Shown here: positions 26,251 through 45,362 of the stretch, piece after piece
How positions within the stretch are numbered: position 1 is the first letter of the stretch
How the letters are laid out: each line of letters opens with the position of its first letter
Assembly (NCBI GenBank): GCA_036563485.1
Contig: DATCMI010000001.1
Location: forward strand, 1,365,501 to 1,429,500
Length of the DNA stretch: 64,000 bases
Direction: 5' to 3'
DNA from: Sphingomicrobium sp.
GTDB taxonomy: Bacteria; Pseudomonadota; Alphaproteobacteria; Sphingomonadales; Sphingomonadaceae
Notes under the pieces: model-generated
The model's input: only the letters and a program-made list of their open reading frames with translations
What the model was told of the DNA's origin: nothing
Databases searched by the model: none
Translations under genes and position numbers: made by a program

Positions 26251-26287
26251 GTTCGGAGCGACTCTTTGCTCGCGAGTCGGGTTCCAG

Positions 26288-29341: not shown

Positions 29342-29555
29342 TGCCCTGCCCCCCCTGTTCGTTTGCCAATGCTTACCCGAACCCTTTGATATGGCAAAGC
29401 TTATTGCCGACGAAGGCGGGCGCCGCATGTCCGCTTTCTACCCATTCACGGCGTGAGCGGCTTAGGCCTGCTTCCGAATTCAACAGGACACTAGCTGCCT
29501 AGTTCACTTTACCTGTCCCGGAGAGACAGGATGGGCGCGAACGCTGATAATGGCT

Positions 29556-30240: not shown

Positions 30241-30480
30241 GAAGCCTTTCGCACTGAGGACATTGCTCAGTCTCCGCAGAAGGCGAGGAACGTCCGCGCA
30301 TGCGTCGCATCGAAGTCGGCGCCGAACGGCCGGCCCGATCATCTAATCTACCTCTTGGTTCAACCACCCCCTGACTGCAGGCGCGAGAACCCCTCGGATG
30401 CTGCCAAAGCGGGAATCCCGAGAGCGACGGGTGCAACTCGCCGGGGCGCCTGTCGGTTAGCACGTCGAAAGGACATTTGA

Positions 30481-30636
30481 ATGGATGAAAACAGGCATGG
30501 TCAGGGACTTCACAATGGGCAGGAACCGCGCAGCAAATCCTCGGCGGTGAAGATGTTTGCGTACACCGCAATCGCTGTGCTGGTCGTCGGCATCATCCTG
30601 CTCGCGACCGGTGCGGTTAAGTTCGGACCTTACTAG
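30481..30636 (+). CDS. 51-residue single-pass membrane peptide
   Basis: An ATG-started ORF with GAAAGGA 7 nt upstream. It has a hydrophilic N-terminus (MDENRHGQGLHNGQEPRSKS) and one clear transmembrane helix (MFAYTAIAVLVVGIILLATGAV) ending in KFGPY. No family is recognised. The good RBS and clean topology make it a plausible gene. Confidence 0.55.
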   Translation: MDENRHGQGLHNGQEPRSKSSAVKMFAYTAIAVLVVGIILLATGAVKFGPY

Positions 30637-30674
30637 GTCCTCTCATCGAAACGTCCGCCGCCGCTCCCGGCGCG

Positions 30675-30702
30675 AGTCCGGAATGGGTGGAAAGCGGGCA
30701 GT
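30675..30702 (+). repeat. dispersed palindromic repeat, copy 2
   Basis: AGTCCGGAATGGGTGGAAAG followed by CGGGCAGT; right arm diverged. It lies just after the 51-residue membrane ORF. Confidence 0.6.
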
Positions 30703-30731
30703 CCGTGGATGCACGGAACCTCGAGAGGAGC

Positions 30732-30908
30732 CTATCGCAAAAACTGTAGGATAATGCCGACAACAACTAGCGCCGCAACTGCCATCGGGATGATAAGGAA
30801 CGCCCACCACACTAGCCCTTCTGGGCCGCCATCCTTGACCAGCAACAACGTGATCAGCGCTGCGTCAGCGAGTCCGATCGCAAGAACGACCGTCCAGTAG
30901 GTTCTCAT
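30732..30908 (-). CDS. 58-residue two-helix membrane protein
   Basis: Starts at the ATG at 30908 (MRTYWTVVLAIGLADAALI). Two hydrophobic helices are separated by a short loop (VKDGGPEGLVW), and the second helix is IIPMAVAALVVVGIILQF. A longer in-frame version would read through the dispersed repeat and begin with the spurious VRFPPIADI peptide, so it is rejected. The function is unknown. Confidence 0.55.
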   Translation of the reverse strand: MRTYWTVVLAIGLADAALITLLLVKDGGPEGLVWWAFLIIPMAVAALVVVGIILQFLR

Positions 30909-30933
30909 CAGTGCAGGATCGCAGGGGAGCTGG

Positions 30934-30962
30934 ATGTCTGCAATGGGTGGAAAGCGAACATT
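30934..30962 (+). repeat. dispersed palindromic repeat, copy 3
   Basis: AATGTCTGCAATGGGTGGAA then AGCGAACATT; nearly full-length with arms AATGT/ACATT. Confidence 0.8.
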
Positions 30963-31008
30963 GGAAAGATGCACAACGGCTTCCAAATAACCGACGCACT
31001 GGCGCACT

Positions 31009-31845
31009 TCACTCCTGCGTCAACGGGTGCGTGACCTTTTGCCACGCCTTCTGGAAAACCCCGCCCGACGATGCTGGCAATAGATCTCCAACACGATTGA
31101 ATACGGCCGGATCTGCCTTTTCTGTGCGCACAAGGTGAAGGTAAGCTGGCTCATATTGCGCAATCTCAGCCAAACGCTCGAAATCCACTACCCTTAAGGT
31201 CCTGTTGCCTAACTCGATGACCCTCTCAGCGCGAAGGTCGTGAAGCATCCGGTTGACGTGTATGGGCGTCATGCCTGTCGCCTCGGCCAGCTCCTCTTGG
31301 GTGAGGGGGAACGGGATTGCGTTGTCCAGACCTTCGCCGACGATGCGGTAGCGGATCAGCAGCTCGCAGAAGATGTGCGCAATTCGCTCTCGGGCGTCGC
31401 GCTGACCGTGGTTCACGATCCACTCGCGAAGCACCGCGGAGTCAGTCATCGTGCTCCACCACAGCGCCCGTGTTAGGTTCGAAGATTCCGTCAGCAGCTT
31501 CTCCATCTCGGCCGCTGGGATCAGCGCACAAGTGGTGCGGTTCAGCGCGAGAATGTCGTGGTCCATGGCCTCCAGCACGAACACTTCGACGTCGCAGAGA
31601 TCGCCCGGCACAAGAAAAGCCATCATCTGTCGACTGCCATCGCGAAGGGTTTTTGAGCGGGTGGCTAAGCCGCTCGTGACAAGGTGAATCTCGTCAACCT
31701 TTTTGCCAGCCGAAATGATTGTTTGGCCGCGCTGGTAGGTCTTGCTCTTGTGCTGCAACAGCTCATCTAGCCGCATCCGCTCTGATGCGGTGAACCGCGT
31801 AAGCTGCTCCAGCTTCATTGTCAGCGGATTGGACATTTGTGTCAC
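31009..31845 (-). CDS. Crp/Fnr-family transcription regulator (copy 1)
   Basis: A 278-residue regulator with a cyclic-nucleotide-binding-like beta-roll (about 25-130) and a C-terminal winged helix with LTQEELAEATGMTPIHVNRMLHDLRAE. The Cys cluster of FNR is absent, so an iron-sulfur sensor is unlikely; the effector is unknown. The sequence REWIVNHGQRDARERIAHIFCELLIR is typical of the many Crp/Fnr paralogues of sphingomonads. A second paralogue lies at 35254 in the same island. Confidence 0.87.
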   Translation of the reverse strand: MTQMSNPLTMKLEQLTRFTASERMRLDELLQHKSKTYQRGQTIISAGKKVDEIHLVTSGLATRSKTLRDGSRQMMAFLVPGDLCDVEVFVLEAMDHDILALNRTTCALIPAAEMEKLLTESSNLTRALWWSTMTDSAVLREWIVNHGQRDARERIAHIFCELLIRYRIVGEGLDNAIPFPLTQEELAEATGMTPIHVNRMLHDLRAERVIELGNRTLRVVDFERLAEIAQYEPAYLHLVRTEKADPAVFNRVGDLLPASSGGVFQKAWQKVTHPLTQE

Positions 31846-31976
31846 CTCCCCAACGAAACGCGTGAACAGTCGTAACGAGCCGTAGGCAACGGCCGCTGCG
31901 CTCTTGACGGCGCTGATATAGTTGGCTGCAGACCTACTTATGGCTGCTGCGCGTCGAAAACAGCTGGCAGCGGGAT

Positions 31977-32013
31977 AAAAAAGGCCCGCTCTCCAAGGTA
32001 CAGAAGAGCGGGC
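31977..32013 (-). terminator. intrinsic terminator (minus strand)
   Basis: On the minus strand GCCCGCTCT pairs with AGAGCGGGC over 9 bp, followed by six T residues. It ends the transcript of the small gene at 32069-32275. Confidence 0.8.
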
Positions 32014-32068
32014 GAGTCACTCAGAGAGACTAAGCGGCCAGTGCGGCGGCCGAGACAATAAACAACAC

Positions 32069-32275
32069 TTAGTCTAGGTGCTCGGTTCCTCTCGGGCCGA
32101 CGCTACGAGACCGCCGCTGGCCGCGAGCCACCACTACGCCTTCGGCAAGTGCGTTCGCCGTCTTCTCGGCAGCTTCCGGTGTAAGCTGGACGGACACGCC
32201 GTCAGGCCCTTCGACCGAAACAGCTCCATCGTCGGCATGCACGTCACTTGCCGTGTCGTAGATCTTCTTGACCAT
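32069..32275 (-). CDS. 68-residue hypothetical protein
   Basis: Starts MVKKIYDTASDVHADDGAVS and contains SVEGPDGVSVQLTPEAAEKTANAL, an amphipathic alpha/beta pattern, then a basic tail (VVARGQRRSRSVGPRG). The frame extends 14 codons upstream, but this Met is the natural start. An intrinsic terminator follows 56 nt downstream, which supports a real transcription unit. No family is recognised. Confidence 0.55.
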   Translation of the reverse strand: MVKKIYDTASDVHADDGAVSVEGPDGVSVQLTPEAAEKTANALAEGVVVARGQRRSRSVGPRGTEHLD

Positions 32276-32423
32276 GCTTCGATAATAGATGGAGGCCAGT
32301 CTGGGTTCCTGACCCAAAGGGAATGAGGTCCGCCTTTACGACCCTCTTTCCTCCTGCGCTTACTAAGGCACCGAGAGGATCCTGGTTCAACTGCTGTCAA
32401 AGTCAGGCGTGCCGACGCCTTCA

Positions 32424-32648
32424 TCAGACCCGATCTGTGGTCCTTGCCAGGCGCTGACTACAGTAGAGTTCAGCAAGCTCCTGATGCGCTGATCGGGCGG
32501 CATGTGTTCGGCTCGTTTTGGCAGCGGCGCGTTCCGCCATCTCTCTTGCTCGTAGATACTCTTCCGTCAGTTGTTTGCTGACCTCCTCGCCTGAGGCTAG
32601 CTCATCGTGAAAAACGGTAATTGGAGAGTCCAAAGAAAGGTTGGGCAT
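32424..32648 (-). CDS. small hypothetical protein (74 residues)
   Basis: MPNLSLDSPITVFHDELASG followed by a helical charged stretch (EEVSKQLTEEYLRAREMAERAAAKTSRTHAARSAHQELAELY). The composition is that of a small soluble helical protein. An ATG three codons upstream is also possible. No family is recognised. Confidence 0.5.
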   Translation of the reverse strand: MPNLSLDSPITVFHDELASGEEVSKQLTEEYLRAREMAERAAAKTSRTHAARSAHQELAELYCSQRLARTTDRV

Positions 32649-33168
32649 AGCAAGCATCGTCTAAGGTTGCCCGACGGATAACGGCGTAAGCTCATGCCTG
32701 TTGCACTATGTAATCCACATTTGCTTGAACGGCGGCGGCTGAAAGCCGACGCGCCTCGCATTCGGGAGCTTGGCCGGTCGTGTCTAAAATGGGTCGATGG
32801 CGGACTGTAGCGAGCGCTAACCGTGCTGACATGGGAGCCCAGAGCGAAGTCCAGGTGATGGCCGAATAAACGGAGATTTAACGACCCTGGGCGGGGGCAA
32901 CCGCACCACCGGGACCGAGGAGACGCACTTACACGAACCCCGCGGCTGTTTTGCCGCGATCTAAGAAGCGCTTAAGCCTTGTGTTCTCTTAAATCAGGTT
33001 GGGCCGAGTGTGTCTGGCGTTGTTAGGTGTGCTGTCGATCTTATGTCCGCACCCGACGGTTGAGAGTGTCCGCTATCGGTCAGAAATTAATGTCGGCCGT
33101 CGACATGGGCTTGATACCTGCCGTTGAGACACCATCTGCGCACACCTTCCAACACCGCAGACAGGCCC
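32649..33168. other. 520-bp region without a confident gene; possible structured RNA
   Basis: A 38-codon frame at 32694-32810 ends inside a palindromic repeat copy and is probably spurious. From 32837 GCCCAG pairs with CTGGGC at 32887-32892, and CGCGGC-TGTTTT-GCCGCG forms a perfect 6-bp hairpin at 32941-32958. The G-rich segment GGGCGGGGGCAACCGC lies between. A small RNA is possible but I cannot assign a family. Confidence 0.35.
32779..32807 (+). repeat. dispersed palindromic repeat, copy 4 (diverged)
   Basis: GTGTCTAAAATGGGTCGATG followed by GCGGACTG; arms GTCT/GGAC are retained and the core is mutated. Confidence 0.55.
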
Positions 33169-33309
33169 ATGATCAATTCAGCTTACATTCTCGCTCTGAG
33201 CGACAGCTCATACGCCCGACGACAACTCTGCCCCATGTTCTCGGGTGGCGCTTATGGCCGCGTGTCGTGCACCTTGAATGACCGTCGAAGAAGCCCGCGG
33301 GCGGGCTAA
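33169..33309 (+). CDS. candidate micropeptide family, copy A (46 residues)
   Basis: ATG at 33169, TAA ending 33309. The translation opens MINSAYILALSDSSYARRQL, then CPMFSGGAYGR, a variable part, and a C-terminal RAG. A second copy at 45007 has the same length. Over the first 29 codons the copies differ at 11 nucleotides, 7 of them in third positions; six of those seven are silent, and codon 13 stays Ser through a double change (AGC/TCC). That is the mark of selection on protein sequence. Upstream sequence is less conserved (27 of 39 identical). No family is recognised and no clear RBS is seen. Confidence 0.6.
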   Translation: MINSAYILALSDSSYARRQLCPMFSGGAYGRVSCTLNDRRRSPRAG

Positions 33310-33346
33310 GTCTCAGCGGGTGGAGAGCCGGCAAGAACGCACGCGT

Positions 33347-33805
33347 CTACTCAGTTTTGATAGATAGCTTCCGCTTAGACTTGGCCGAGTGCGCCGCTCC
33401 CGTCCGTTCTGTTTTCGGCTTCCGTCCTAAACCGATGGTCTTGGCAAGCGCTTTCCGCTGCTCCGAATAGTTCGGAGCTGTCATCGGATAGTTGTTGGTC
33501 AGACCGTAGTCTTGCCGGTACTGGTCCGGCGTCATCCCATGCGCCGTCTGAAGATGCCTCTTAAGCGTCTTCTGCTTACGTCCGCACTCCATACAGACAA
33601 TGAAGTCTGGCTTCACCGACGCCCTTATCGAGACGATTGCTGTCTTAGCGGATGGAACGGAGCTTGGATCCTTTTTCAGGCCTGCAAGGGCTGAGTGCAC
33701 CTGGTGGATTAGATTGCCCACGTCGCCCACAGCGACTGTGTTGTTAGCTACATGCGCAGCCACAATGTCGGCCACGAGTTCAGTGAGTTTAGCGTTAGTG
33801 CTCAT
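33347..33805 (-). CDS. MucR/Ros-family zinc-finger regulator
   Basis: A 152-residue MucR-type regulator. The single prokaryotic zinc finger reads CMECGRKQKTLKRHLQTAHG (Cys2-His2 with 9- and 4-residue spacings), followed by the family signature MTPDQYRQDYGL and NYPMTAPNYSEQRKALAKTIGLGR. MucR proteins bind AT-rich promoters and act as H-NS-like silencers controlling exopolysaccharide, motility and cell-cycle genes. The Met at 33805 (MSTNAKLTELVADIVAAHVANN) is the usual family start. It could silence the island's surface-protein genes (inference). Confidence 0.93.
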   Translation of the reverse strand: MSTNAKLTELVADIVAAHVANNTVAVGDVGNLIHQVHSALAGLKKDPSSVPSAKTAIVSIRASVKPDFIVCMECGRKQKTLKRHLQTAHGMTPDQYRQDYGLTNNYPMTAPNYSEQRKALAKTIGLGRKPKTERTGAAHSAKSKRKLSIKTE

Positions 33806-34061
33806 CGACACCCTCGGTTGATCATCCAAGCAAATAGGCTCTCGCGAGAGCATAGCAACTGAGCACTGTAAGTAGTGTAAAACTTTAGTATCCGCGCTCA
33901 GTCGATCGAGGTGAAGTGTGGGTTATTGCCGATAATTTAGGCTAGTCTGGCGTTCAGCAGCGAATCGCCTTTGCTGCCGGGGCGGTTTCAGCGGCTTTGA
34001 TAGCCGGTCTCATGCTCGGTTTTCGTTGGCTGTGTGGACGTAAGCGGGGCACAACGGCTGA

Positions 34062-34688
34062 CTAGGTACCTGGTTGGCTACCCCTTGCAACGCCTAGTCT
34101 TGCGAGCAGCATGTCGAAGACGACTGGGTAGATCGGCCGGACAAACTCCAACCCACCATAATAATCGTCGACCCACCGGACCGTCGCGGTGATTGCGTCA
34201 AGCCCATCTAACTTGACCCAAATGCTCTCGCCGAGGCGAGGTCGTTCAACGAACTCGACCTTGCAACCACGTGGCGTCAGATCAAAGGTGCGAGTGAAGT
34301 AAGACCCTCGGCCGGGCCGACGTAGCGAAATGTCGGCTGCGACGGACTGACGATCATGCTCGCGAGGGATGTACTTGGCCGCTGAAGGCGAGTCGTCGAG
34401 GAGAAATTGCAGGCCTCCTTTGCCGCTGCTGTACCATCGGACAATTGCATCAAGCGCACCGCAGATGCCCTTGATCGACAACCTAAGTTGAAGCCCGGGA
34501 AATAGCGCCAGATCGCTGCGTATTTTGCAGCCGTCGTAAGAGAGATCGACGACGGTCAGGCCAAAGGTCGTCTGATCGCCTAAGACGCCAAAGCCAGGCA
34601 GATCTACCACGCGCCTCGGCTTACGATTACCCTCCCGCTCGGACGGAGTTGCAGGCGCCAGCGATTGCTCGGGCGTGGACCTCACCAT
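34062..34688 (-). CDS. tandem PilZ-like domain protein
   Basis: A 208-residue protein with two PilZ-like modules. Module 1 (about 22-105) has RKPRRVVDLPGF and VVDLSYDGCKI; module 2 (about 110-200) has SLRRPGRGSYF and FDLTPRGCKVEF. Both keep the D-x-(S/T)-x-x-G loop; the RxxxR c-di-GMP loop is recognisable in module 1 only, so nucleotide binding is uncertain. Its start overlaps the stop of the upstream PilZ gene by 7 nt, so the two are translated together. Confidence 0.78.
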   Translation of the reverse strand: MVRSTPEQSLAPATPSEREGNRKPRRVVDLPGFGVLGDQTTFGLTVVDLSYDGCKIRSDLALFPGLQLRLSIKGICGALDAIVRWYSSGKGGLQFLLDDSPSAAKYIPREHDRQSVAADISLRRPGRGSYFTRTFDLTPRGCKVEFVERPRLGESIWVKLDGLDAITATVRWVDDYYGGLEFVRPIYPVVFDMLLARLGVARGSQPGT

Positions 34689-35002
34689 ATCGGCAGCTCA
34701 GGGGACTTTTCGAAAACCCCGCCGGCAACGATCCCGTCTACCCACAGCAACTTGCAATCGAGGGTGTCGCGAGGAAGGCGCATTCTGACCCTTTGCCCTG
34801 GGTGCAGCAAAGCTCGTGACCTTAAGCGGAAGCCATCGCTGGAAAGATCCTCAATTATTGCCTTCACTGCGCAGTCCTTCGAAAGCTCCAGCGTGATGGA
34901 CATTGAAAGTCTTACACGCGGCGCGCGTGGGGCATGATCGCGGCCACGCGACCTTACTCCTGGATTCTCAGAAGATGGGGCGAGGTTCGGCATCAGCTTC
35001 AC
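34682..35002 (-). CDS. PilZ-domain protein
   Basis: A 106-residue single PilZ domain. The arginine loop RAPRVRLSM and the strand motif IEDLSSDGFRLRS fit the c-di-GMP-binding pattern, followed by PGQRVRMRLP and the closing strand GGVFEKS. PilZ proteins convert c-di-GMP level into changes in motility or surface secretion. First gene of a two-gene PilZ operon. Confidence 0.8.
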   Translation of the reverse strand: MKLMPNLAPSSENPGVRSRGRDHAPRAPRVRLSMSITLELSKDCAVKAIIEDLSSDGFRLRSRALLHPGQRVRMRLPRDTLDCKLLWVDGIVAGGVFEKSPELPIW

Positions 35003-35091
35003 GTAGTGCGTCGCGGATAATCAGCTCTAAACAAACATCGTTAATGCGCCGTAGCCGCCGGCCATCGGCTGATGAGGGCTGGAGCCAAGCA

Positions 35092-35120
35092 AACGTCCTG
35101 CTTTGAGTGGAAAGCGCATG
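35092..35120 (+). repeat. dispersed palindromic repeat, copy 5 (diverged)
   Basis: GTCCTGCTTTGAGTGGAAAG followed by CGCATG; core partly kept, right arm lost. Confidence 0.45.
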
Positions 35121-35253
35121 TTGCGAAGAGCTTGGAACCTGATATGGGTTAGCGAACAACCACCTGATTATGTTAATTGGCAACCTCCAACATTCGAAGG
35201 CGGGTCGGCTGAGAGACGTCCGTGCTGCGCACAACACACGAAAGTGATCCTTA

Positions 35254-36009
35254 GTGCAGCGCCACATCAACGAATCCACGCTCGAGCCCTTCGTCGCGAA
35301 GCTCGCGTATCGCGCCGAACTCGATGCGGACGACCGGCATGCAATCCGGACGCTACCATTCACGATCAGGAGAATGGAGCGCAGCGAGTTCCTTATTCGT
35401 GAACGTGAGCTCGCCACTCATTCGTCCGTGATGCTTTCAGGCTTCTCTATTCGGCACAAGCTGGTCGCCAGCGGCCATCGGCAAATCGTTGCTATCCACC
35501 TGAAGGGCGAAGCCGTGGACCTTCAGAACTCAATGCTAAAAGTCGCAGATCACAGTGTCCAGATGCTCACCGCCGGCAAGGTGGCCATGATTCCACGCGA
35601 GGCTATCGTCGAGCTGACGCTGGCGCGGCCGAGGGTGGGCCACGCGATGTGGATCGACACGCTGGTCGACGGCTCGATCTTCCGCGAGTGGACTGCGAAC
35701 GTCGGACGCAGAGACGCCCGCACGCGCATGGCGCATCTTCTTTGCGAGTTCTCGCTTCGGTTGAAGTCCGCGGGCTTAGGCGATGAGACCGGCTACGAGC
35801 TGCCGATGACTCAGGAACAGCTTGCTGACACCACTGCCCTGACATCAGTCCACGTCAATAGAACGCTCAAAGCGTTGGAGAAAGAAGGCCTGATCAGCCG
35901 CACGAACCCTCGGATGGTGCGCATTGGGGACTGGCGCAGGCTCGCTGAGGCGGGCGATTTTGACAGCAGCTATCTACACATGCGGGAGGACGACGTGGCG
36001 TTCGCCTGA
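35254..36009 (+). CDS. Crp/Fnr-family transcription regulator (copy 2)
   Basis: A 251-residue paralogue of the regulator at 31009. The effector domain is more diverged. The DNA-binding helix reads MTQEQLADTTALTSVHVNRTLKALEKEGLI. The shared segment REWTANVGRRDARTRMAHLLCEF links the two copies. A GTG start at 35254 is the first candidate in frame and there is no strong RBS. Two palindromic repeats lie between it and the methyltransferase gene, so it is probably transcribed alone. Confidence 0.83.
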   Translation: MQRHINESTLEPFVAKLAYRAELDADDRHAIRTLPFTIRRMERSEFLIRERELATHSSVMLSGFSIRHKLVASGHRQIVAIHLKGEAVDLQNSMLKVADHSVQMLTAGKVAMIPREAIVELTLARPRVGHAMWIDTLVDGSIFREWTANVGRRDARTRMAHLLCEFSLRLKSAGLGDETGYELPMTQEQLADTTALTSVHVNRTLKALEKEGLISRTNPRMVRIGDWRRLAEAGDFDSSYLHMREDDVAFA

Positions 36010-36021
36010 AAGTTCGACGCT

Positions 36022-36050
36022 AACGTCTGCAATGGGTCGAAGGCAGACCT
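36022..36050 (+). repeat. dispersed palindromic repeat, copy 6
   Basis: AACGTCTGCAATGGGTCGAA followed by GGCAGACCT; arms GTCTGC/GCAGAC pair perfectly, and it sits 8 bp from copy 7 in tandem. Confidence 0.8.
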
Positions 36051-36058
36051 AAGCTTTC

Positions 36059-36087
36059 AATGTCTGCAATGGGTGGAAAGCGGACAT
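36059..36087 (+). repeat. dispersed palindromic repeat, copy 7
   Basis: AATGTCTGCAATGGGTGGAA followed by AGCGGACAT; close to the consensus. Confidence 0.85.
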
Positions 36088-36123
36088 GGCCCAGCGTAGC
36101 AACATGCCGTTGGAGGCCTGACG

Positions 36124-37053
36124 ATGCAGTCACCTTTTCTGTCTGGCTTGCGCTACCTCGCTGAGGGAGGCCAGGAAACGGAGCTGATGTACGGCCACGG
36201 TTTCGAATTGCCAAAGTTTGCGCTGTTTCCGCTGCTCGACGACGCCGCCGCGGTAGTTCAACTGAAAGCCATGTACGAGGCGGTGCTCCAGGTCGCGGTG
36301 CGCCACCGCATGAGCGTTATGCTTGGTGGGTTGGACTATCGCGCGAGTCCTGATTGGGCCGGATTGTTGGGGATCGATGCTGTTAGACTTGCCGATTATC
36401 AGCATCGCTCCGTCGCGTTCCTGAGGGAGGTTGCTGAACCCTATCTTGAGAAATTGCCTCACATCTTGGTGAGCGGCATCGTCGGGCCTCAAGGCGACGC
36501 TTACGAGCGCAACCAGACCGTCACAGCTTCCTCTGCCGAGGCCTACCATGGGACCCAGATGGACAATCTGGCCTCGGCGGGCGTTGATCTCGTGCAGGCG
36601 ATGACATTCACAAGCAGTCACGAGGCGATCGGGGTGATACGCGCGGCGCAAGCTCGCGAGCTTCCCATAGTCGTGTCATTTATGACCGATTCACCGGATG
36701 AACCGGGGGGACAGCGATCCTTCCGCCAAACCATTGAGGACGTTGACCGAGCAACCGACAGTTACGCGCTGTTTTACGGCATCAATTGCGCACATCCGCG
36801 GGAGTTCGAGCCACTGCTTAGGGACCAGGGCGAGTGGCTCAACCGAATAGGTCTTCTCCGACCGAATGCTTCAGCGAAGGACAAGGTCGAACTTTGTCAG
36901 ATCGGCCATCTTGAACGCGGCGATGCACGCGAGCTCGCGCAGCTGATGGGGGTGCTCGCGGCGCGGCTGCCAAACGTCAGGGTGCTTGGCGGCTGCTGCG
37001 GTACCTGGGATGAACATCTTGACCTGATCGCCGGGGCAGCGGCGTCAGTCTAA
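36124..37053 (+). CDS. homocysteine S-methyltransferase-family protein
   Basis: A 309-residue TIM-barrel methyltransferase. The zinc Cys ligands are recognisable in YGINCAHP and in the C-terminal GGCCGT. Relatives transfer methyl from S-methylmethionine or betaine to homocysteine. The usual N-terminal DGG signature is replaced by LAEGGQETELMYGHGFELPKFALFPLLDD, as in a divergent subgroup of short homologues. GGAGG lies 8 nt before the ATG. It stands alone between repeats, with no methionine gene next to it, and the substrate is unproven. Confidence 0.83.
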   Translation: MQSPFLSGLRYLAEGGQETELMYGHGFELPKFALFPLLDDAAAVVQLKAMYEAVLQVAVRHRMSVMLGGLDYRASPDWAGLLGIDAVRLADYQHRSVAFLREVAEPYLEKLPHILVSGIVGPQGDAYERNQTVTASSAEAYHGTQMDNLASAGVDLVQAMTFTSSHEAIGVIRAAQARELPIVVSFMTDSPDEPGGQRSFRQTIEDVDRATDSYALFYGINCAHPREFEPLLRDQGEWLNRIGLLRPNASAKDKVELCQIGHLERGDARELAQLMGVLAARLPNVRVLGGCCGTWDEHLDLIAGAAASV

Positions 37054-37397
37054 ACCGGGACCAATCAACGTCTGCAATGGGTGGAAAGCGGACGTTCCAG
37101 ACAATGCCGAAACACGACCCGTTTGGCATTGGCAGAGGGTCGGCTTGATGGCCTGAAAGACGAACCGTTCAAGTTCCCGCTCTGAAGGCGACAAACCCGT
37201 TCTCGGCGGAAGAAGAATGAGCTTCGAGCTCGTACGCAGCCGGCACGAAGCCATCACAAGACGGAAACTGGGTTGAAATCAGATGGGTCCAAATTGGGGC
37301 GTTCGTTAACCTTTTCCGTCCATTTTACGCGGGTGTGGCGAAGGTAAACCGAGTCTTTGATACTAGCCGGGGGGCTGATTAGAGAGGCGCACGGATC
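37054..37397. promoter_or_regulatory. 344-bp upstream region of the autotransporter gene
   Basis: Holds palindromic repeat copy 8 (37067-37096) and then an AT-richer stretch before the autotransporter gene. TTAACC near 37310 resembles a CtrA half-site and GAGTC near 37352 is a CcrM methylation site; neither proves regulation. No gene is seen. Confidence 0.4.
37067..37096 (+). repeat. dispersed palindromic repeat, copy 8 (best copy)
   Basis: Arms AACGTCTGC and GCGGACGTT pair over 9 bp with one G-T wobble, around the core AATGGGTGGAAA. Confidence 0.88.
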
Positions 37398-40300
37398 ATG
37401 GTCCGGCTGCCGGATTTTCCTTCGTCGAAACGGGACAACTTATCGGACCCGCCGAGCAGCGGCTCGACGGGCGGGGGATTACAAGTGCGTTACTTGATGG
37501 TTGGTGCGCTCACAGCATGGGCAGTTGTGGGTAGCAGCGAGGCTGCTGCGCAGCAGACTTTAACGGCGAATTTCAGCCGCGGCGCAATTGCTCAGTATTC
37601 GGGCAATCCAAATGGAACGGACGCCGGTCAGCTGTTTGGTAGCCTGGCGATCTCGTCCATGTCCGTTAGTCAGGTATCTGCAAACGGCACTTGGGGAGGC
37701 ACTCAAGGCAATGACACATCGATAACCGCAACCATCAACTTCAGCGATGGCCGCTCACCGGTGACATTCCCTGCGGCGATCAATTGGGTCAAAAATGCTG
37801 GCGCTGGCCAGTTCGACTGGATTGGCGTCACAATCGGTGCAGCGCAGACTGTCAACGATGGCTACACGCCGACGGCCGGCAAGTCGAAAACCTACATTCT
37901 TCAGTTTCCGCAAAGCTCCCTCAGCCTTGCAACCCTGCTTCCGGACAACCTCGACGGGAGCGCAAATGCGGGAGCTGCCCTCAACGCGCTTAATCAATAT
38001 TTCCCAAATGCTACGCCGCCGGTGATCACGGGGCCGTCTGGTGGAGCAGGCTCAGCGAGTTCCGTGATCAGCGTAAACGAAAATCAGCGGGCAGTGACAA
38101 CGCTTACGGCTAACAAGGCGATCACGAGCTGGACGATCGTTGGAGGTTTTGACTCTTCTAAGTTCACGATCAGCTCAGGGGGTGTGCTTGCCTTCAACGG
38201 GGCTACCCCAGCTCCCGATTACGAAAATCCGTCTGACAACGATACTAACAACACCTATGTAGTGACCGTCAGAGCCACTGATGCGAATGGAAATACGGCA
38301 ACCCAGACGATTACGGTCACGGTCTTGGACCTGGACGACACGGCTCCTGCCGTTGCTGCTCAGTCGTTTAACTATGCTGAGAACCAGTCGGCAAATGCGA
38401 CCGTAGGCACTGTGGCGGCCACGGACGCGGTGGGTGTTAGCGCGTTCCGCTTCTCGGCCAATAACAGCCAGACCAGCGCTGATGGCTATTACACCATCGA
38501 CAATGCAGGTGCGATCAGGATCACCGCTGCTGGTGTGGCCGCGGGCGTCGCCAACAACGATTACGAGATCACGCCCAACAGCTTCATCTATGGCGTGCAG
38601 GCGGGCGACGCTGCGGGCAACTGGTCGGCAGCCGCCAACGTTACGCTTAACGTCACGGATGTGAATGAAGCGGCGCCGAATGCTGCTCCGACCATCACTG
38701 CTGGCCAGTCCTTCAACTACGCCGAGAACCAGAGCTCCGGCGCTCAGGTCGGCCTTGTAGCGGCTAGCGACGACGTTGCAGTTACTGGCTTCCGCTTTGC
38801 CGCGACCGCTAACCAGACCAGCGCCGACGGCTTTTTCTCTATCGATGCAACGGGGCGCATCACGCTTACTGCAGCCGGTGCTGCCGCAGGAGTGGCCACC
38901 AACGACTACGAGATCACGCCCAACAGCTTCACCTATGCCATCGAGGCAGGAGATGCCGGCGGCCTCTGGTCAACCGCAACCAACGTCACACTCAACATCA
39001 CCGACCTGGACGACACGGCGCCGGCAATTACCGGCCCCAGCAACGGTCCGGGTGCTGCGGCCTCGGCGATCACCGTCAACGAGGGCACAACGACCGTCAC
39101 TACCCTGACGAGCAACGTCCCGATCAGCAGCTGGTCAATTGTCGGTGGCAATGACCAGGGCCGTTTCTCGATCAGCCCGGCGGGCCAGATCACCTTCCTT
39201 GCGGCTCCAGACTACGAGGCACCCGCTGATGCCGACACCAACAACACCTATGTGCTGACGGTCCAAGGTACAGATGCCAACGGCAACTCCGCGACCCAGA
39301 CAGTTACAGTGACGATTGCAGACCTCGCCGACACGGCGCCGGCAATTACCGGCCCCAGCAACGGTCCGGGTGCTGCGGCCTCGGCGATCACCGTCAACGA
39401 GGGCACAACGACCGTCACTACCCTGACGAGCAATGTTCCAGTCACGTGGTCAATCGTTGGAGGCGATGACCAAGGCCGCTTCTCAGTCGATAGCTCTGGG
39501 GCAATTACCTTTACGGCTGAGACAGACTACGAGAACCCGGTCGATAGCGACAGAAACAACACGTATGTTCTGCTGGTAGAGGCACGTGATGGCAACGGAA
39601 ACCTCGCAACTCAGACGGTTACCGTCTTCATCAGGAATGTTGACGAACTTGCCCGCCGCTTGGACGAGATCGGGGAGAATCTGCGGGGTAATCTTCGCAA
39701 CCATGCGTTCTCGAGCCTCTCGACCATGCTCCAGTACAATGAAGGGCTTCTCAACGTGGACGAGAGCTTCTGCTTTGATCCGCGACGATCGTTTTCCGGG
39801 CAGGCAAACTCAGACGACTACATTCAAGCGGCAGGCGTCAACTTCCGCAAAGATCTTACCTCATGCAAATCTCGGACTCGAACCTTCGTGGATACGGGGG
39901 TCGGCTTCACGCGGGTGAACGGTAATTGGACCACGAGAGGGCTCGCTGCAGCGGGTATCGAACAGAAGCTCGACAAACGTGTGGTGATTGGCGCTGCACT
40001 TCTCGGCACTACGTCGGCCGACAAACTCTCATCCTTCGATGACAGCCGCATCTCCGACAAGAGCCTGCAGCTGAACGTCTATGGCCGTGCTCATCTGGCC
40101 GACCAGCTCCGCTTTGGCGCGTTCGCCGGTTGGGGCAAAGCCTGGTACTCGTTCCGCCTCAATGATGATGGGCTTGCGCTTCGAGGTCGCATGACCGGCT
40201 ACCGCCACATCTATGGTGCGGTACTATCCGGTGACATACAGCTCGCCGGGACCACAATCACGACGGACGCGACTCTATCTAGGGCCTCGGAGCAACTAAA

Positions 40301-40739
40301 TTCGGCCAAGCTGAACGCCTACTACAAGGGCGAAGAAGGGTCGAAGGTCCTGTTCCTCGTTGGCAAGGTCGACGTAACGAGGCTCAGCGTTCCCGTGCAA
40401 ATCCCAATCATTTTTGGTCACGTGGACAGGGCTGAGCCGACGCGCCTAGATATCAGCCCAGGCCTGCTCTGCCAGGATACGGAGCAGGACTCGTCTTCAA
40501 TTGACTGCGGCTACCAGCTTGGCTTCAAGTTCAGGCTGGCTCCAAGCTTCAGGTGGCGAATACAGGCGCAGGCACGGCGTGAGGTGGTAGAGGGCTATGC
40601 CTCTAATCTTCTCTCCGTCGGCGTCATGAGGCACCTCGGCAAGCGGAATGAATATGCTCTCGGTCTCGATGCGGAGCGCGAGGCTCGCGCTCAACAGGCG
40701 GACAATCGATTGATGATGCGGTTTGGCGTGAGCCGCTGA
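37398..40739 (+). CDS. autotransporter with cadherin-like repeats
   Basis: A 1113-residue surface protein. A signal-type segment (YLMVGALTAWAVVGSSEAAAQ) follows a 33-residue hydrophilic extension, so cleavage near residue 55 is likely. The passenger has five cadherin-like repeats of two types: one with ITGPS(N/G)G, TLT(S/A)N, SWSIVGG and DANGN(S/T)ATQT, the other with QSFNYAENQ and NDYEITPNSF. The last about 340 residues (from RRLDEIGENLRGNLRNHAFS) look like an outer-membrane beta-barrel with alternating aromatic strands. The last residue is Arg rather than Phe. A role as adhesin is likely. It has its own promoter region and no partner genes. Confidence 0.83.
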   Translation: MVRLPDFPSSKRDNLSDPPSSGSTGGGLQVRYLMVGALTAWAVVGSSEAAAQQTLTANFSRGAIAQYSGNPNGTDAGQLFGSLAISSMSVSQVSANGTWGGTQGNDTSITATINFSDGRSPVTFPAAINWVKNAGAGQFDWIGVTIGAAQTVNDGYTPTAGKSKTYILQFPQSSLSLATLLPDNLDGSANAGAALNALNQYFPNATPPVITGPSGGAGSASSVISVNENQRAVTTLTANKAITSWTIVGGFDSSKFTISSGGVLAFNGATPAPDYENPSDNDTNNTYVVTVRATDANGNTATQTITVTVLDLDDTAPAVAAQSFNYAENQSANATVGTVAATDAVGVSAFRFSANNSQTSADGYYTIDNAGAIRITAAGVAAGVANNDYEITPNSFIYGVQAGDAAGNWSAAANVTLNVTDVNEAAPNAAPTITAGQSFNYAENQSSGAQVGLVAASDDVAVTGFRFAATANQTSADGFFSIDATGRITLTAAGAAAGVATNDYEITPNSFTYAIEAGDAGGLWSTATNVTLNITDLDDTAPAITGPSNGPGAAASAITVNEGTTTVTTLTSNVPISSWSIVGGNDQGRFSISPAGQITFLAAPDYEAPADADTNNTYVLTVQGTDANGNSATQTVTVTIADLADTAPAITGPSNGPGAAASAITVNEGTTTVTTLTSNVPVTWSIVGGDDQGRFSVDSSGAITFTAETDYENPVDSDRNNTYVLLVEARDGNGNLATQTVTVFIRNVDELARRLDEIGENLRGNLRNHAFSSLSTMLQYNEGLLNVDESFCFDPRRSFSGQANSDDYIQAAGVNFRKDLTSCKSRTRTFVDTGVGFTRVNGNWTTRGLAAAGIEQKLDKRVVIGAALLGTTSADKLSSFDDSRISDKSLQLNVYGRAHLADQLRFGAFAGWGKAWYSFRLNDDGLALRGRMTGYRHIYGAVLSGDIQLAGTTITTDATLSRASEQLNSAKLNAYYKGEEGSKVLFLVGKVDVTRLSVPVQIPIIFGHVDRAEPTRLDISPGLLCQDTEQDSSSIDCGYQLGFKFRLAPSFRWRIQAQARREVVEGYASNLLSVGVMRHLGKRNEYALGLDAEREARAQQADNRLMMRFGVSR
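39011..39115 (+). repeat. 105-bp perfect repeat within the autotransporter, unit 1
   Basis: Identical to 39329-39433, 318 bp (106 codons) apart. Both encode the start of a cadherin-like repeat (APAITGPSNGPG...). The sequence after the block diverges quickly. Confidence 0.95.
39329..39433 (+). repeat. 105-bp perfect repeat within the autotransporter, unit 2
   Basis: Second copy of the block at 39011-39115. Perfect identity next to diverged flanks suggests recent duplication or gene conversion. Confidence 0.95.
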
Positions 40740-40888
40740 CGCAATTGGCGGCGAGCTCCCTGCGGCATGGTGGAAACCGTTTGAGCAGATCATCAGCGAG
40801 CCGACGCTACCGGAGGACCTCAGAGGTGTTTAGGCCGGCTAGCTCGGTCCGCTACGGTCTACCTGCGTCGAGTGCGGACATGCCGCTA

Positions 40889-40918
40889 AAGTCTGCTTTG
40901 GGTCGGAAGCAGACATTA
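40889..40918 (+). repeat. dispersed palindromic repeat, copy 9
   Basis: AAAGTCTGCTTTGGGTCGGA followed by AGCAGACATT; arms GTCTGC/GCAGAC pair perfectly and the core is a CTTTGGGTCGG variant. It overlaps the 3' end of the GIY-YIG gene by 3 nt. Confidence 0.8.
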
Positions 40919-41539
40919 AGCCGGGCGCCGCGGACCGCCGCTGTCGACGACGATCTCAAGCTCCTTGGCGGCAGCCCTAGCGGCCCTTCTCAACGGGGAG
41001 AGCCGAGCGACGTGCTCGATACACGGGTTTCCATCGATGTTGAGCGGGAGCGCCAGGTTGCTCGCAAGGATACGCTCTTCGACTTCCCAAGGCCGATCGC
41101 AAGGATGGGCCGCGACGAACGCGTGGCGGCTCATCCAATCGTCTAGTCGCTGCTCTCCCGGGTTGGTGAACGTAAACCGCGAGCCGCTGCCAACTCGCCG
41201 GAGCGCTATCCCGAGATGCTGGCTAAGAAGGCAGCCCAAGCTCAGTCGGAGAGTAGAGCCTTCGGCATTGCCGCCAAAATGGGTCCGGAGCCGTTGCCGG
41301 ATCGTGGACCTGCTTGCCGCCTTGCCGCTGGTCGGAGGCGCCGAGGGGGAGATGCCGACATAGAGCAGTGTCAGGCCGTTGGAAGTATGACATCCGGTTG
41401 CGTCGACAGCGCCCGGAATTTCGCCGAAATACCAAGCGTAGATTCCCGGCTCCGCGGGCGCAGCAGATGGGCGCCGCAGCACGTCATCCGAAGAGAGGAG
41501 CCGCGAAGGGTTTAGTAGGGCCGTAGGAATGCTCAGCAC
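40916..41539 (-). CDS. GIY-YIG nuclease-family protein
   Basis: A 207-residue protein with a GIY-YIG fold: PGIYAWYFGEI for the first strand, LLYVGISPSAPPTS for the YIG strand, catalytic-type Arg in STIRQRLRTHFGG and a Glu in WEVEERIL. It has no separate DNA-binding domain. Family members include repair and homing nucleases, but many stand-alone versions of this type have no known role. It ends in the island repeat and has no recognisable partner gene. Confidence 0.75.
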   Translation of the reverse strand: MLSIPTALLNPSRLLSSDDVLRRPSAAPAEPGIYAWYFGEIPGAVDATGCHTSNGLTLLYVGISPSAPPTSGKAASRSTIRQRLRTHFGGNAEGSTLRLSLGCLLSQHLGIALRRVGSGSRFTFTNPGEQRLDDWMSRHAFVAAHPCDRPWEVEERILASNLALPLNIDGNPCIEHVARLSPLRRAARAAAKELEIVVDSGGPRRPA

Positions 41540-41555
41540 TGGGGGCCAGCGATGT

Positions 41556-41696
41556 CTAATTGGTCACGCGATAAAGGCCTAAGGCCTGTTGGAAAGCGAT
41601 AGCAAGGTCGGCAATATCCACGACGTTAGTTCTACCGGTGAGTTCGAAACGCATGCGTGCGGGGCGGGAGAACCAAAGATCGCGCTCTGAGTCCAT
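41556..41696 (-). CDS. 46-residue hypothetical protein
   Basis: An ATG frame (MDSERDLWFSRPARMRFELT, then GRTNVVDIADLAIAFQQALGLYRVTN) with AGGA 9 nt upstream. The sequence looks strongly protein-like, with an amphipathic helix IADLAIAFQQALGLY. The same frame is open back to the stop of the small membrane gene at 41763 and would allow a non-ATG start, so it may be the second gene of a two-gene unit or a remnant. No family is recognised. Confidence 0.45.
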   Translation of the reverse strand: MDSERDLWFSRPARMRFELTGRTNVVDIADLAIAFQQALGLYRVTN

Positions 41697-41762
41697 GTCG
41701 AACGTTCCTGCATTGTCGACCGAGCAGGCGACTACTTTGCTGTAGGGCAGCGTCGATACAGG

Positions 41763-41951
41763 TCAGTGGACCTTCGTGTCTCCGTCGGAGCTTCGCAGCA
41801 GGAGTGACGCCACCATGTACGGAATGCCGGCGAGCACGAGCGCCTGAGCTGCGGCCGCCGCCTGTTGCGGCGCACTGTCCGGCGAAGTCTGGGCCCACCA
41901 CAAGAAGACCAGAACCCCCCATACCGCACTAACAATCCCAACTACGCGCAT
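41763..41951 (-). CDS. 62-residue two-helix membrane protein
   Basis: Starts MRVVGIVSAVWGVLVFLWWA; a loop TSPDSAPQQAAAAAQ follows and then a second helix (LVLAGIPYMVASLLL) with a charged tail. The first Met after CAGGGGAATCAG gives a good RBS. It resembles the tiny membrane protein at 30732 in design, not in sequence. Unknown function. Confidence 0.6.
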   Translation of the reverse strand: MRVVGIVSAVWGVLVFLWWAQTSPDSAPQQAAAAAQALVLAGIPYMVASLLLRSSDGDTKVH

Positions 41952-42073
41952 CTGATTCCCCTGAACTACCAACGCCGCGCGACCATCGCTCGGCGCTCCG
42001 GCTTTGCACCAATTAAGACTGCTGGGCTCTAGTGCAAGAAACGGCCGAAACTCGGGTTTTTTCCGGCGACAGA

Positions 42074-42103
42074 GATGTCCGCAATGGGTGCAATGCGGAC
42101 ATC
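42074..42103 (+). repeat. dispersed palindromic repeat, copy 10
   Basis: GATGTCCGC and GCGGACATC form a perfect 9-bp palindrome around AATGGGTGCAAT. It sits just downstream of the 42107 gene's stop. Confidence 0.88.
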
Positions 42104-42106
42104 AGT

Positions 42107-42715
42107 TCAACGGTTGGAAATGCTCGCCGTGTCCGCCAAAGCGCGAAAATCGGCTAATGTCCGGTCGAAGTAGTGCAGACGCGGAGCGTCAAACGTGGCC
42201 ATATAAAGTCGGTTTCCGATCAGCACGGCTCGCGCCTCCCCCTTCCTCGGCAGCTCATCGCTGTCGATATATTCGTAGGTGAAGTACACGCCTTGTTCAC
42301 CTAGGAACCGCTCTGGCCTGGATCCGGTTAGTTTGAAGCCGCCAATCTTCTTGTATGCTCGGTACGTGCCTTCGAGGAGCTCCGGTATTTCGATGAGCAA
42401 GGTGCTCGTCGTGAACTTCGGCAACGGATCCCGCTTCTTATTGCGCTCCTTGACGAGCGGCGCCCCTGGCTCGACGCCGCCATAGAACGTTACGTCGTTG
42501 AGCTGTTCGCCGTCGAGCGTCCAAGTCTCAGCGTATCTGCCGGGTCTCTGATCTAGCCGGTTCCAGTCACGCGGCGGCGTGACCATCATGTTCGAGCCGG
42601 CAATTTCGACCGTCTTGCCTTTCTCCCGGTAAGCATTGGCATACGCCGGATGCGCACCAAGAGCAGCAACGTACAGGCCGGCGAGAGCCCACGGCCGCCC
42701 TTTGATGATCGTCAT
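42107..42715 (-). CDS. secreted hypothetical protein, third gene of M48 operon
   Basis: A 202-residue protein with a signal peptide (MTIIKGRPWALAGLYVAALGAHPAYA-NA). The mature part has VEIAGSNMMVTPPRDWNRLD and a beta-rich core (GVYFTYEYIDSDELPRKGEARAVLIGNRLYMATFDAP), as in small periplasmic or lipoprotein-like folds. Its start overlaps the M48 protease stop (ATGA). It could be a substrate, inhibitor or chaperone of the protease; no family is recognised. Confidence 0.7.
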   Translation of the reverse strand: MTIIKGRPWALAGLYVAALGAHPAYANAYREKGKTVEIAGSNMMVTPPRDWNRLDQRPGRYAETWTLDGEQLNDVTFYGGVEPGAPLVKERNKKRDPLPKFTTSTLLIEIPELLEGTYRAYKKIGGFKLTGSRPERFLGEQGVYFTYEYIDSDELPRKGEARAVLIGNRLYMATFDAPRLHYFDRTLADFRALADTASISNR

Positions 42716-43920
42716 TGCTTCCCTCCCACCGATCCTACAGTCATTTGGATCATTGCTAAGTCGGAAGCGTCCGGCTTCAGCTGGAGGTATCGCTCCAGTG
42801 CTGTCAGCCCTTCAGCTGTCCTTCCCGTTTTGATCAACGATAGCCCTAGTCCTCGATGGGCTTCGGCAAGCTGCGGTTCCAGCGCCACTGCTCTCGAGTA
42901 AAAGTCGGCCGCATGAACCAGATCGCGCGGCGCCCCCCGCATCCGAAACAGCTCAGCACGAGCGTACCAGAGTGGCGCGGTCCAGCCGTCCTGCGCGAGC
43001 GCGTTGATGAGGTATTCACTTCCGCCGAAGTCGTTCAGCTTAATCTGATCTTCAAGGAAGATAGGTAGCCATTTCGCTAGCGCCTGTTTGTACCGCTGTA
43101 CCCCTTCGGTACGCGTTTCTCCATCCGGCGCAGCCAGCTCGCTCAAATAAGCCGCTCGCTCAGCTTCAGGCGGATGGCTGGCGAAGAACGCGATTCGGTC
43201 GAACCGGGGCTTCTTCAACCCGCGCGCGGAAGCAGAAGCCTCGGTCTCAGCCATGAAGTTGCGCCAGACGCGCGTGGCAGCCTGTGGCCTTAAGTTGCTA
43301 CCGTTCAGGTAGCTGATGCCGACGAGATCTGCCTCCCGTTCGTTATCGCGGCTGAAGCGCAGCAGAGAGCCGTAGACAGATAACTCCAAATCTTGAAAGT
43401 TCCTGTGCACATTTGAACTGTTGGACATCGAGGCTAGGACAGCTGCCCAACTCAGCAGGTCGGTTCCGGTGCGACGGGCCTTGAAGCGGGCAAGGGTGTG
43501 CCGCTTTTCGAAGTGCCCAAATTCATGCCCTAGTACGGCCGCAAGCTCGGCCTCGCTTCGCGCGCGGAGCAGGAGGCCGCTGTAAACGCGCATTGTGCCG
43601 TTTGGCGACATGGTGGCGTTGAAACTCGGCTCTCGCACAATGTAGACGCGCGTTGCGTTGCAGCGGTCCGACCCGACTGCTGCACAGAGCACACTCTTCA
43701 CGTAGGCGGTAAGCGTCTCGTCGCGGATTAGCACCGGCGAATTCGCCAGCTTCTGCTCGCTCTCGTCGTCTTCTCGCCAAAAACCAATCTCGTCCACGCC
43801 CTGCGGTTGGTAAACCCCGGCGTATGGTGGAGGTGGCGGCGCGGGCTTCATCTCGGGCGCTCCACTGCCCGGTGCCGCTAGCGCCAAAGCGCTCCAAGCA
43901 GCGATGAAGGCGCTCTTCAT
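42712..43920 (-). CDS. M48-family metalloprotease with TPR tail
   Basis: A 402-residue periplasmic zinc protease. A signal peptide (MKSAFIAAWSALALAAPGSGA) is followed by a Pro-rich linker and the catalytic domain: zinc ligands HEFGH and the Glu in NEREADLVG. The C-terminal about 90 residues hold TPR-like helices (AADFYSRAVALEPQLAEAHRGLGLSLIKTG). This resembles BepA/YfgC-type outer-membrane quality-control proteases. It overlaps both neighbours by 4 nt, so three secreted proteins are made as a unit. Confidence 0.9.
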   Translation of the reverse strand: MKSAFIAAWSALALAAPGSGAPEMKPAPPPPPYAGVYQPQGVDEIGFWREDDESEQKLANSPVLIRDETLTAYVKSVLCAAVGSDRCNATRVYIVREPSFNATMSPNGTMRVYSGLLLRARSEAELAAVLGHEFGHFEKRHTLARFKARRTGTDLLSWAAVLASMSNSSNVHRNFQDLELSVYGSLLRFSRDNEREADLVGISYLNGSNLRPQAATRVWRNFMAETEASASARGLKKPRFDRIAFFASHPPEAERAAYLSELAAPDGETRTEGVQRYKQALAKWLPIFLEDQIKLNDFGGSEYLINALAQDGWTAPLWYARAELFRMRGAPRDLVHAADFYSRAVALEPQLAEAHRGLGLSLIKTGRTAEGLTALERYLQLKPDASDLAMIQMTVGSVGGKQ

Positions 43921-44672
43921 CGTTTAGCCTCAGCGTGCTTAACCGTGCTACCAGGGAAGTCCTCTAGCAGCTGGCGAACTCTCTTCTCTGCCCCGTCTGG
44001 CTCGCGCACGTCGCCACCCATCGCGAAGTCCGCGTTCAGCCACAGAAGATCCCCGGTTTTGAGGTCGACTAGCCCCGCCGCACCTTTGTGTTCGCCCGAC
44101 TTGATGGCCAACCCCGGGCCAAGCAAGGCGACAGCCTGAAGTATCTTCCGCCCCGTCGAACCATAAGCATCTTTATTATAGATGAACAAGGCATAGTCAG
44201 CATCTTCGGCTCCCGGAAGGCTGCGAATTCCCTCGCCGAGGGACGAGTCGAAGACGCCTGATTTATTATCCCGCTTCTTCGTCGGCAGTCGGTTGCCTAC
44301 GAAAAATTGATAGCTCATCACCGCCTGAGAAACCGCGTCGAATAAGTTCGTGTACTCCTCAAGCAGCTGGGCCTGTTGGCCGTAAGCCTCGGGTGCAGTC
44401 AAAACCGTGTTACCCAAGGCGGACTGGCGCTTTAGCAACGCCGCCTCGATGTTTTTTCGTGCCTGGTCAGTCCACTCGGCACGCGGTTCAAACATGCCTC
44501 CGGTGGACTGGGCGCCCACACTAACTTTCGGGCGAAACACCAGTATCTTTTTGCCGCTATTAGCGGGCAATTCAAACCCCTGCTTGATTGCAGCTCGCTC
44601 CTGCGCGCCTGCTGCGGATGCAGCATTCAGCACTAACAGCGCGGCCGCTGCCAGCTGGATAATCGATCTCAT
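43917..44672 (-). CDS. secreted hypothetical protein, first gene of M48 operon
   Basis: A 251-residue protein with signal peptide MRSIIQLAAAALLVLNAASA-AGA. The mature part carries KKILVFRPKVSVGAQSTGG, a long helical region and DYALFIYNKDAYGSTGRKILQAVALL with GLVDLKTGDLLWLNAD, a pattern I associate with periplasmic or lipoprotein-type proteins built on a GNA1162/CsgG-like fold, but this is not certain. The Met at 44672 is preferred because the signal peptide begins there. Its stop overlaps the M48 gene start (ATGA). Confidence 0.72.
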   Translation of the reverse strand: MRSIIQLAAAALLVLNAASAAGAQERAAIKQGFELPANSGKKILVFRPKVSVGAQSTGGMFEPRAEWTDQARKNIEAALLKRQSALGNTVLTAPEAYGQQAQLLEEYTNLFDAVSQAVMSYQFFVGNRLPTKKRDNKSGVFDSSLGEGIRSLPGAEDADYALFIYNKDAYGSTGRKILQAVALLGPGLAIKSGEHKGAAGLVDLKTGDLLWLNADFAMGGDVREPDGAEKRVRQLLEDFPGSTVKHAEAKR

Positions 44673-45006
44673 GTACGCCCCCCAATCACACGGCCCCCGA
44701 GCCGCACTCACAATGTGCAGGAAGATTATCAGATCGCAAGCTACAAAAAAGATGCTGGAGCCGTGCGTTACGGAGAAGCTCTTCGGGGACGCCAAGGTTG
44801 CGGTGAAGAGGTTAGCAACGACGCGGGATCTCAGGGCGATAGTGGAGCCTTGTCGGTGATCGCCGCTACGGGAGCGCCGGTGCCCTGCTTGCTGTGGACC
44901 GGCTACCAACGACGATCAATCGACCAACACTATTGCTCGTGATGCTTCTTGATCTGGTCGGTCGGGCCACCATCTGCGAACGCTTCCCGCACCCGAAGAC
45001 AGCCTA
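44673..45006. other. 334-bp region without a confident gene
   Basis: Two overlapping plus-strand frames exist: one from 44715 (MQEDYQIASYKKDAGAVR...) and a 35-codon one from 44752 (MLEPCVTEKLFGDAKVAVKR...). The second has high GC at third positions but no clear RBS. The region also carries the 5' flank of micropeptide copy B (from 44968). Confidence 0.4.
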
Positions 45007-45147
45007 ATGATCAGTTCCGCTTACATGCTCGCTCTGACCGACTCCTCTTACGCACGACGCCAACTCTGCCCGATGTTCTCGGGTGGAGCTTATGTCCGCA
45101 GCCACAGCACCTTTAAGAACGATCGGGCAGGGGCGCGGGCGGGCTAA
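45007..45147 (+). CDS. candidate micropeptide family, copy B (46 residues)
   Basis: MISSAYMLALTDSSYARRQL, then CPMFSGGAYVR, a variable segment and a C-terminal RAG before TAA. It matches copy A at 33169 in length and in the first 31 residues except at four positions, with silent changes at Ser4, Ser13, Ser14, Ala16, Arg18, Pro22 and Gly27. The 39 nt before the ATG align without gaps to copy A. It sits 140 bp from the tRNA end of the island. The role is unknown; one Cys (residue 21) is invariant. Confidence 0.6.
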   Translation: MISSAYMLALTDSSYARRQLCPMFSGGAYVRSHSTFKNDRAGARAG

Positions 45148-45283
45148 AGTCATCAGCAGGTGGATAGCGCAACAAGAACACGGCAACGGCATGGTCGCCC
45201 GCGTTCGTGCTTGCCAGGTGATTGTTGGACGGAAAGGCCAGGATCACGGTTGAACCGGAAACCGGAGTTAACCTGTTGAAATA

Positions 45284-45335
45284 AGGTGGTGCCGCTTGCG
45301 TGACTCGAACACGCGACCCCATCATTACGAATGAT
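45284..45335. repeat. attachment-site repeat, tRNA-proximal copy
   Basis: A 52-bp sequence identical to 24642-24693, covering the 3' 49 nt of tRNA-Thr(CGT) plus 3 nt beyond its CCA end. Confidence 0.92.
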
Positions 45336-45362
45336 GTGCTCTACCAGCTGAGCTAAAGCGGC
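45287..45362 (-). tRNA. tRNA-Thr(CGT)
   Basis: A 76-nt cloverleaf on the minus strand with encoded CCA: acceptor GCCGCTT/AAGCGGC, anticodon stem CATCA/TGATG with loop TTCGTAA (anticodon CGT), T arm GCGTG-TTCGAGT-CACGC. It is intact although its 3' half is the island attachment site. Confidence 0.97.

Follow-up and report, generated by a model that had tools for sequence, protein, structure and literature searches.

Two diverged copies of a ~210-bp block, each holding an open reading frame (ORF) of 46 codons, lie within one genomic island in the stretch of Sphingomicrobium sp. contig DATCMI010000001.1 analyzed here (64,000 nucleotides, referred to below as the window). Copies A and B (Table 1) are read, with a probability of roughly one half, as a lineage-restricted orphan small gene that was duplicated inside an island at a tRNA-Thr gene and has a constrained N-terminal core. 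The duplication itself is real, beyond chance: the two blocks are 78% identical over 213 columns (E = 1.2e-37 in the window self-comparison). Both ORFs run from ATG to TAA and specify 46 amino acids, with a protein identity of 70%. Across the 141-nt frame, the copies differ by 30 substitutions without a single indel, so that start, length, and stop are all shared, and none of the other reading frames is open in both copies.

The coding-like signal resides in codons 1 to 29, in which 76 of the 87 nucleotides are identical. The changes in this segment are split 1/3/7 among the first, second, and third codon positions; six of those at third positions are silent (codons 4, 14, 16, 18, 22, and 27), and Ser13 is retained through a double change (AGC versus TCC). 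Apart from the full split by position and the codon numbers, these counts, as well as the equal length of the two ORFs, had been given in an earlier note on this DNA and were reproduced from the codon table. With five nonsynonymous (Nd) and six synonymous differences, the ratio of nonsynonymous to synonymous substitution rates (dN/dS) is ~0.22, and permutation yields a P value of 0.0054 for the combination of no stop codon with an Nd no higher than observed (0.0093 given no stop), for a segment that was selected after inspection of the data. Replacement changes affect 5 of 66 sites in codons 1 to 29 versus 16 of 37 sites in codons 30 to 46 (Fisher P = 5e-5, rounded counts); silent changes are distributed alike in the two parts (6 of 21 and 3 of 14, respectively; P = 0.71, rounded counts).

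A second duplication in the same island, covering part of an RTX-repeat protein (26672-27161 and 29751-30239, 77% identity, with a one-base gap between the copies), provides a yardstick for the codon-position pattern. Its changes are distributed 18/11/81, mostly (81 of 110) at third positions, and the pattern of the 29-codon core resembles it. In simulations with a shuffled and mutated 180-nt core, whose end was placed at the stop codon after that stop had been seen, 0.68% of 20,000 runs produced an ORF open from ATG to stop in both copies over 46 codons or more, and none of these runs combined such an ORF with a silent-change skew equal to the observed one. The rarity of the shared ORF, the silent skew in codons 1 to 29, and the indel-free frame all argue against the view that an intergenic segment was simply copied in a decaying island, with an incidental ORF and with patches of identity that represent chance remnants or constraint at the DNA level.

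That non-coding alternative is nevertheless a serious one, rated somewhat below even, and much of the remaining evidence weighs in its favor and against a translated gene. The repeat block overruns both ends of the ORF, with homology continuing past the stop codon to 33338 and 45179, where alignment of the copies requires small gaps. Identity varies in patches along the block and does not follow the frame: upstream of the ATG, it is 11/11 at positions -39 to -29, 12/21 at -28 to -8, and 4/7 in the adjoining bases; within the ORF, codons 1 to 29 are followed by 5/6 in codons 30 and 31, 18/36 in codons 32 to 43, and 12/12 from codon 44 to the stop. The perfectly matching stretch 29 to 39 nt upstream thus lies outside the ORF. 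A sequence conserved at both loci is CACCATCTGCG. The upstream total of 27/39 cited in the earlier note was confirmed by this breakdown, and its statement that the frame is better conserved than its surroundings holds for codons 1 to 29 and breaks down in codons 32 to 43, which fall below the upstream flank.

Taken over its whole length, the ORF has a dN/dS of ~0.77, which is not significantly below neutral (permutation P = 0.074; 0.19 given no stop). In codons 30 to 46, dN exceeds dS (0.65 versus 0.23), although a ratio above 1 is not statistically supported (Fisher P = 0.20). The changes in the 46-codon ORF are distributed 9/8/13 by codon position, so that 13 of 30 are at third positions as opposed to 81 of 110 in the RTX-repeat yardstick, and the full frame, unlike the core, does not follow the yardstick pattern. 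Codon usage is weak in both copies: ranked against real 46-codon windows taken from 13 island ORFs, copies A and B lie at percentiles 2.3 and 12.6, respectively, and 23% and 7.5% of off-frame windows score at least as high. No sigma-70-like promoter was found in either of the two 601-base regions scanned, and no clear Shine-Dalgarno sequence was apparent by eye. The presence of another diverged duplication in the island, that of the RTX-repeat segment, also counts toward the non-coding reading, and no homologue of either copy has been accepted outside the source genome. With the whole-ORF, codon-usage, and yardstick evidence set beside the core signal, translation of copies A and B is judged to have about even odds. 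The coding signature proposed in the earlier note is accordingly plausible for the first 29 codons alone, a segment picked post hoc, and does not extend to the whole ORF, where permutation is not significant.

The same note had described the two ORFs as a micropeptide family. This label is not supported: the searches left two paralogues in a single genome. A third copy was not found in the 2.33-Mb source genome by either protein or DNA search, which returned merely 14- to 21-base matches besides A and B. Profile searches of other genomes, in samples that overlap and in which certain genomes had some first-look candidates left unscored, produced no match in the genus (0/70 at E ≤ 0.01), the family (0/396 at E ≤ 0.001), or the class (0/384 at E ≤ 0.001). 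The single match in the order (1/395 at E ≤ 0.001; genome G536, E = 7.1e-4) was rejected, as its 27 aligned residues (positions 20 to 46) belong mostly to the variable tail and fall in a frame taken to be RuvC. When 99 other relatives were searched at the protein level, 24 of these genomes showed matches, all weak (E = 0.067 to 1); the 30 rows concerned, 6 of them with an internal stop, were judged by score to be chance. The DNA profile of both blocks, run over 78 loci, detected no further copy. Its next best hit (E = 0.15) was the locus in genome G013, where a 25/28 DNA match around the ATG of copy A had been rejected for lying inside another gene, a 187-amino-acid ORF on the opposite strand.

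Wider collections gave the same result. In the genome_contigs set (84,980 species), 30 stretches fit the peptide pattern, none of them a relative by tblastn, and a second pattern, CPMFSGGAY, had no matches; among viral contigs, 8 stretches fit the pattern with no relatives, and two other patterns had no matches. A further pattern found only the two window copies in 397 family genomes. All of these pattern searches could be escaped by divergent relatives that lack those exact words. With copy B as the query, no plasmid or phage sequence was accepted at the protein or DNA level. No known family was matched in Pfam (E up to 10), NCBIfam (E up to 5), or PHROGs (E up to 5), and the string RRQLCPMFSGG was not mentioned in the literature searched, which contained nothing else relevant judging by titles and the beginnings of abstracts. 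Thus, the many homologues with low dN/dS expected of a protein family did not materialize, with none accepted outside this genome; frameshifts or stops in homologues, which would have spoken against a peptide, were not seen either, but there were no homologues to inspect.

The conserved stretches outside the ORF could also be expected if the block were a two-copy gene for a structured or regulatory RNA, whose transcript would be closed by the terminal stem CCAUCUGC/GCRGGUGG. This closing stem of 8 pairs persists in the consensus of the two sequences, where a single change affects one side only, and in copy B it is strong (pair probability of about 0.87); one sub-fragment of copy B folds with a z-score of -1.50. 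In copy A, however, the pair probability of the stem is 0. Whole-block folds have z-scores of +0.35 (A) and -0.86 (B), the other sub-fragments are at -1.08 and +1.99 (A) and +0.41 (B), and the consensus fold is at -1.5 relative to column shuffles. Of the 32 consensus pairs, only 2 carry changes in both partners. Neither folding better than shuffles nor covariation was observed, in a comparison of just two sequences in which the power to detect covariation is low. Rfam matches in both regions were far below the cut-offs, at which nothing but two tRNAs was found. An RNA of this kind is, on balance, improbable.

If translated, each copy would yield a ~5-kDa basic peptide, with a computed isoelectric point of about 10 (10.3 for copy A and 10.0 for copy B). 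The structure model contains a helix at residues 2 to 20 with low-to-moderate confidence; with a mean predicted local distance difference test (pLDDT) score of 59.6 and a predicted template modeling (pTM) score of 0.25, the model is weak and offers a hint at most, a point against the small-gene reading. In the most likely working model, this N-terminal helix and the LCPMFSGGAY segment would together offer a small surface to which a protein partner from the host or the island could bind; the peptide would act as a small cytosolic modulator, and the basic tail (residues 30 to 46) would be free to drift. Such partner binding through the constrained N-terminal 29 to 31 residues is, as a whole, a doubtful proposal. 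A broader scenario appears unlikely, in which A and B are a young, lineage-unique peptide pair that was caught after duplication and might be secreted or serve as a partner-binding modulator, each with a constrained, leader-like half at the N terminus and a basic half at the C terminus that evolves fast; the pair is located beside a MucR-type regulator and beside the attachment site of the tRNA island.

Conservation drops right after SGGAY, and replacement changes become more frequent from codon 30 on, as would be expected if the ORF encoded a precursor from which a secreted or modified peptide is made, with a conserved leader (codons 1 to 27) ending in Gly-Gly and a fast-changing core (codons 28 to 46). 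Processing at double-glycine sites is usually carried out by a C39 peptidase. The whole genome was found to have no C39 match, although such a peptidase is present in 8 of 14 genomes used as controls, and Pfam recognized no peptide-modification enzyme in the 15 other island ORFs scanned (those at 29999-30571, 32134-32424, and 41632-41922 were among the ones left out), so this possibility is rated very low. In addition, the final codons (RAG-stop) of the presumed core are conserved, and the residues ahead of the GG do not clearly fit the classical leader pattern.

Both copies of the candidate small gene lie in a segment that can be read, from its sequence features, as a tRNA-targeted genomic island (Table 1). 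Its G+C content per kilobase is 0.555 to 0.618 between 25 and 45 kb, compared to 0.61 to 0.69 outside, and the direct repeat at its ends is identical at 52 of 52 positions. This repeat occurs just twice in the window, and copy A was therefore ruled out as an inner attachment (att) site. Integrases of the PF00589 family have four matches in the genome and none in the window, so that the island looks immobilized; serine recombinases were not searched for. Extra partial copies of the same tRNA-Thr are found nearby in three relatives (G102, G044, and G107), which suggests that tRNA-Thr(CGT) is a recurrent insertion site.

Table 1. Features of the window discussed in the text (positions 5' to 3' on the forward strand)
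Feature	Position	Strand	Basis
Copy A, 46-codon ORF MINSAYILALSDSSYARRQLCPMFSGGAYGRVSCTLNDRRRSPRAG	33169..33309	+	ORF listing, codon table
Copy B, 46-codon ORF MISSAYMLALTDSSYARRQLCPMFSGGAYVRSHSTFKNDRAGARAG	45007..45147	+	ORF listing, codon table
Duplicated block, copy A (5' flank, ORF, 3' flank)	33130..33338	+	Window self-comparison
Duplicated block, copy B, whole	44968..45179	+	Window self-comparison
attL-like: left copy of 52-bp perfect direct repeat of the tRNA-Thr 3' part	24642..24693		Window self-comparison
attR-like: right copy of the 52-bp repeat, overlapping tRNA-Thr(CGT)	45284..45335		tRNA scan, self-comparison
tRNA-Thr(CGT), apparent insertion site of the island	45287..45362	-	tRNA scan, Rfam
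Putative low-GC genomic island, 20.7 kb, containing both copies	24642..45335		GC profile, self-comparison
ROS/MUCR transcriptional regulator, convergent with copy A	33347..33853	-	Pfam
ORF without family match, divergent from copy B, beside M48 peptidase ORF	43917..44672	-	ORF listing

The block of copy A stops 8 bases before the stop codon of the convergent ROS/MUCR gene, and that of copy B stops 104 bases before the right 52-bp repeat. At both loci, the next recognized downstream gene is on the opposite strand, so neither copy looks like a leader ORF. For the ORF that diverges from copy B, the ATG start at 44672 was chosen; the ORF program listed a longer TTG start. Among the 15 other island ORFs, Pfam recognized an ATP-dependent DNA ligase, RTX-repeat proteins, two Crp-like regulators and the ROS/MUCR regulator, two PilZ proteins, a homocysteine S-methyltransferase, a cadherin/Ig-like surface protein, a GIY-YIG protein, and an M48 peptidase.

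Several other features of the island were observed. The cadherin/Ig-like surface protein is encoded by the ORF at 37398-40739 (1113 amino acids), which has internal repeats of 70 to 80% identity at 38211-39626. Three minus-strand ORFs follow in a row at 42107-44672; the M48 peptidase, with TPR-like repeats, is in the middle, and the ORFs flanking it on both sides have no Pfam or NCBIfam match. A near-identical repeat of 28 to 29 bp is found at 30934-30961, 36057-36087, and 37065-37093 and reads NVRFPPIADI in the ORF at 30732-31007, a string that occurs in sphingomonad hypothetical proteins; VRFPPIAD was not mentioned in the literature searched. The region 36018-36087 has an 80% match in the relative G107 (locus L073).

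Should the peptides be translated, they would provide a small test case of a very young gene, represented by a pair of paralogues within a single genome, with no further member accepted in the sets searched. As they stand, they mainly illustrate the limits of a two-copy comparison, in which a coding-like signal in a chosen segment coexists with the lack of full-frame support and of homologues.

Compared to known systems, the conserved N-terminal part with a GG followed by a variable part recalls double-glycine leader peptides, from which copies A and B differ in that the genome has no C39 peptidase and the leader pattern is not clearly met. The surrounding segment resembles other tRNA-targeted genomic islands in being flanked on both sides by a perfect 52-bp repeat of the tRNA 3' part, in its low G+C content, and in its mixed genes, and differs in having no PF00589 integrase in the window, serine recombinases lying outside that search. 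The closest likeness of the small gene is to island ORFans, a general class of genes that are similarly short, have no accepted homologue, reside in low-GC islands, and show weak codon bias and uncertain translation. Unlike those, the gene described here is present as two diverged paralogues in one genome, which permit a small test of selection.

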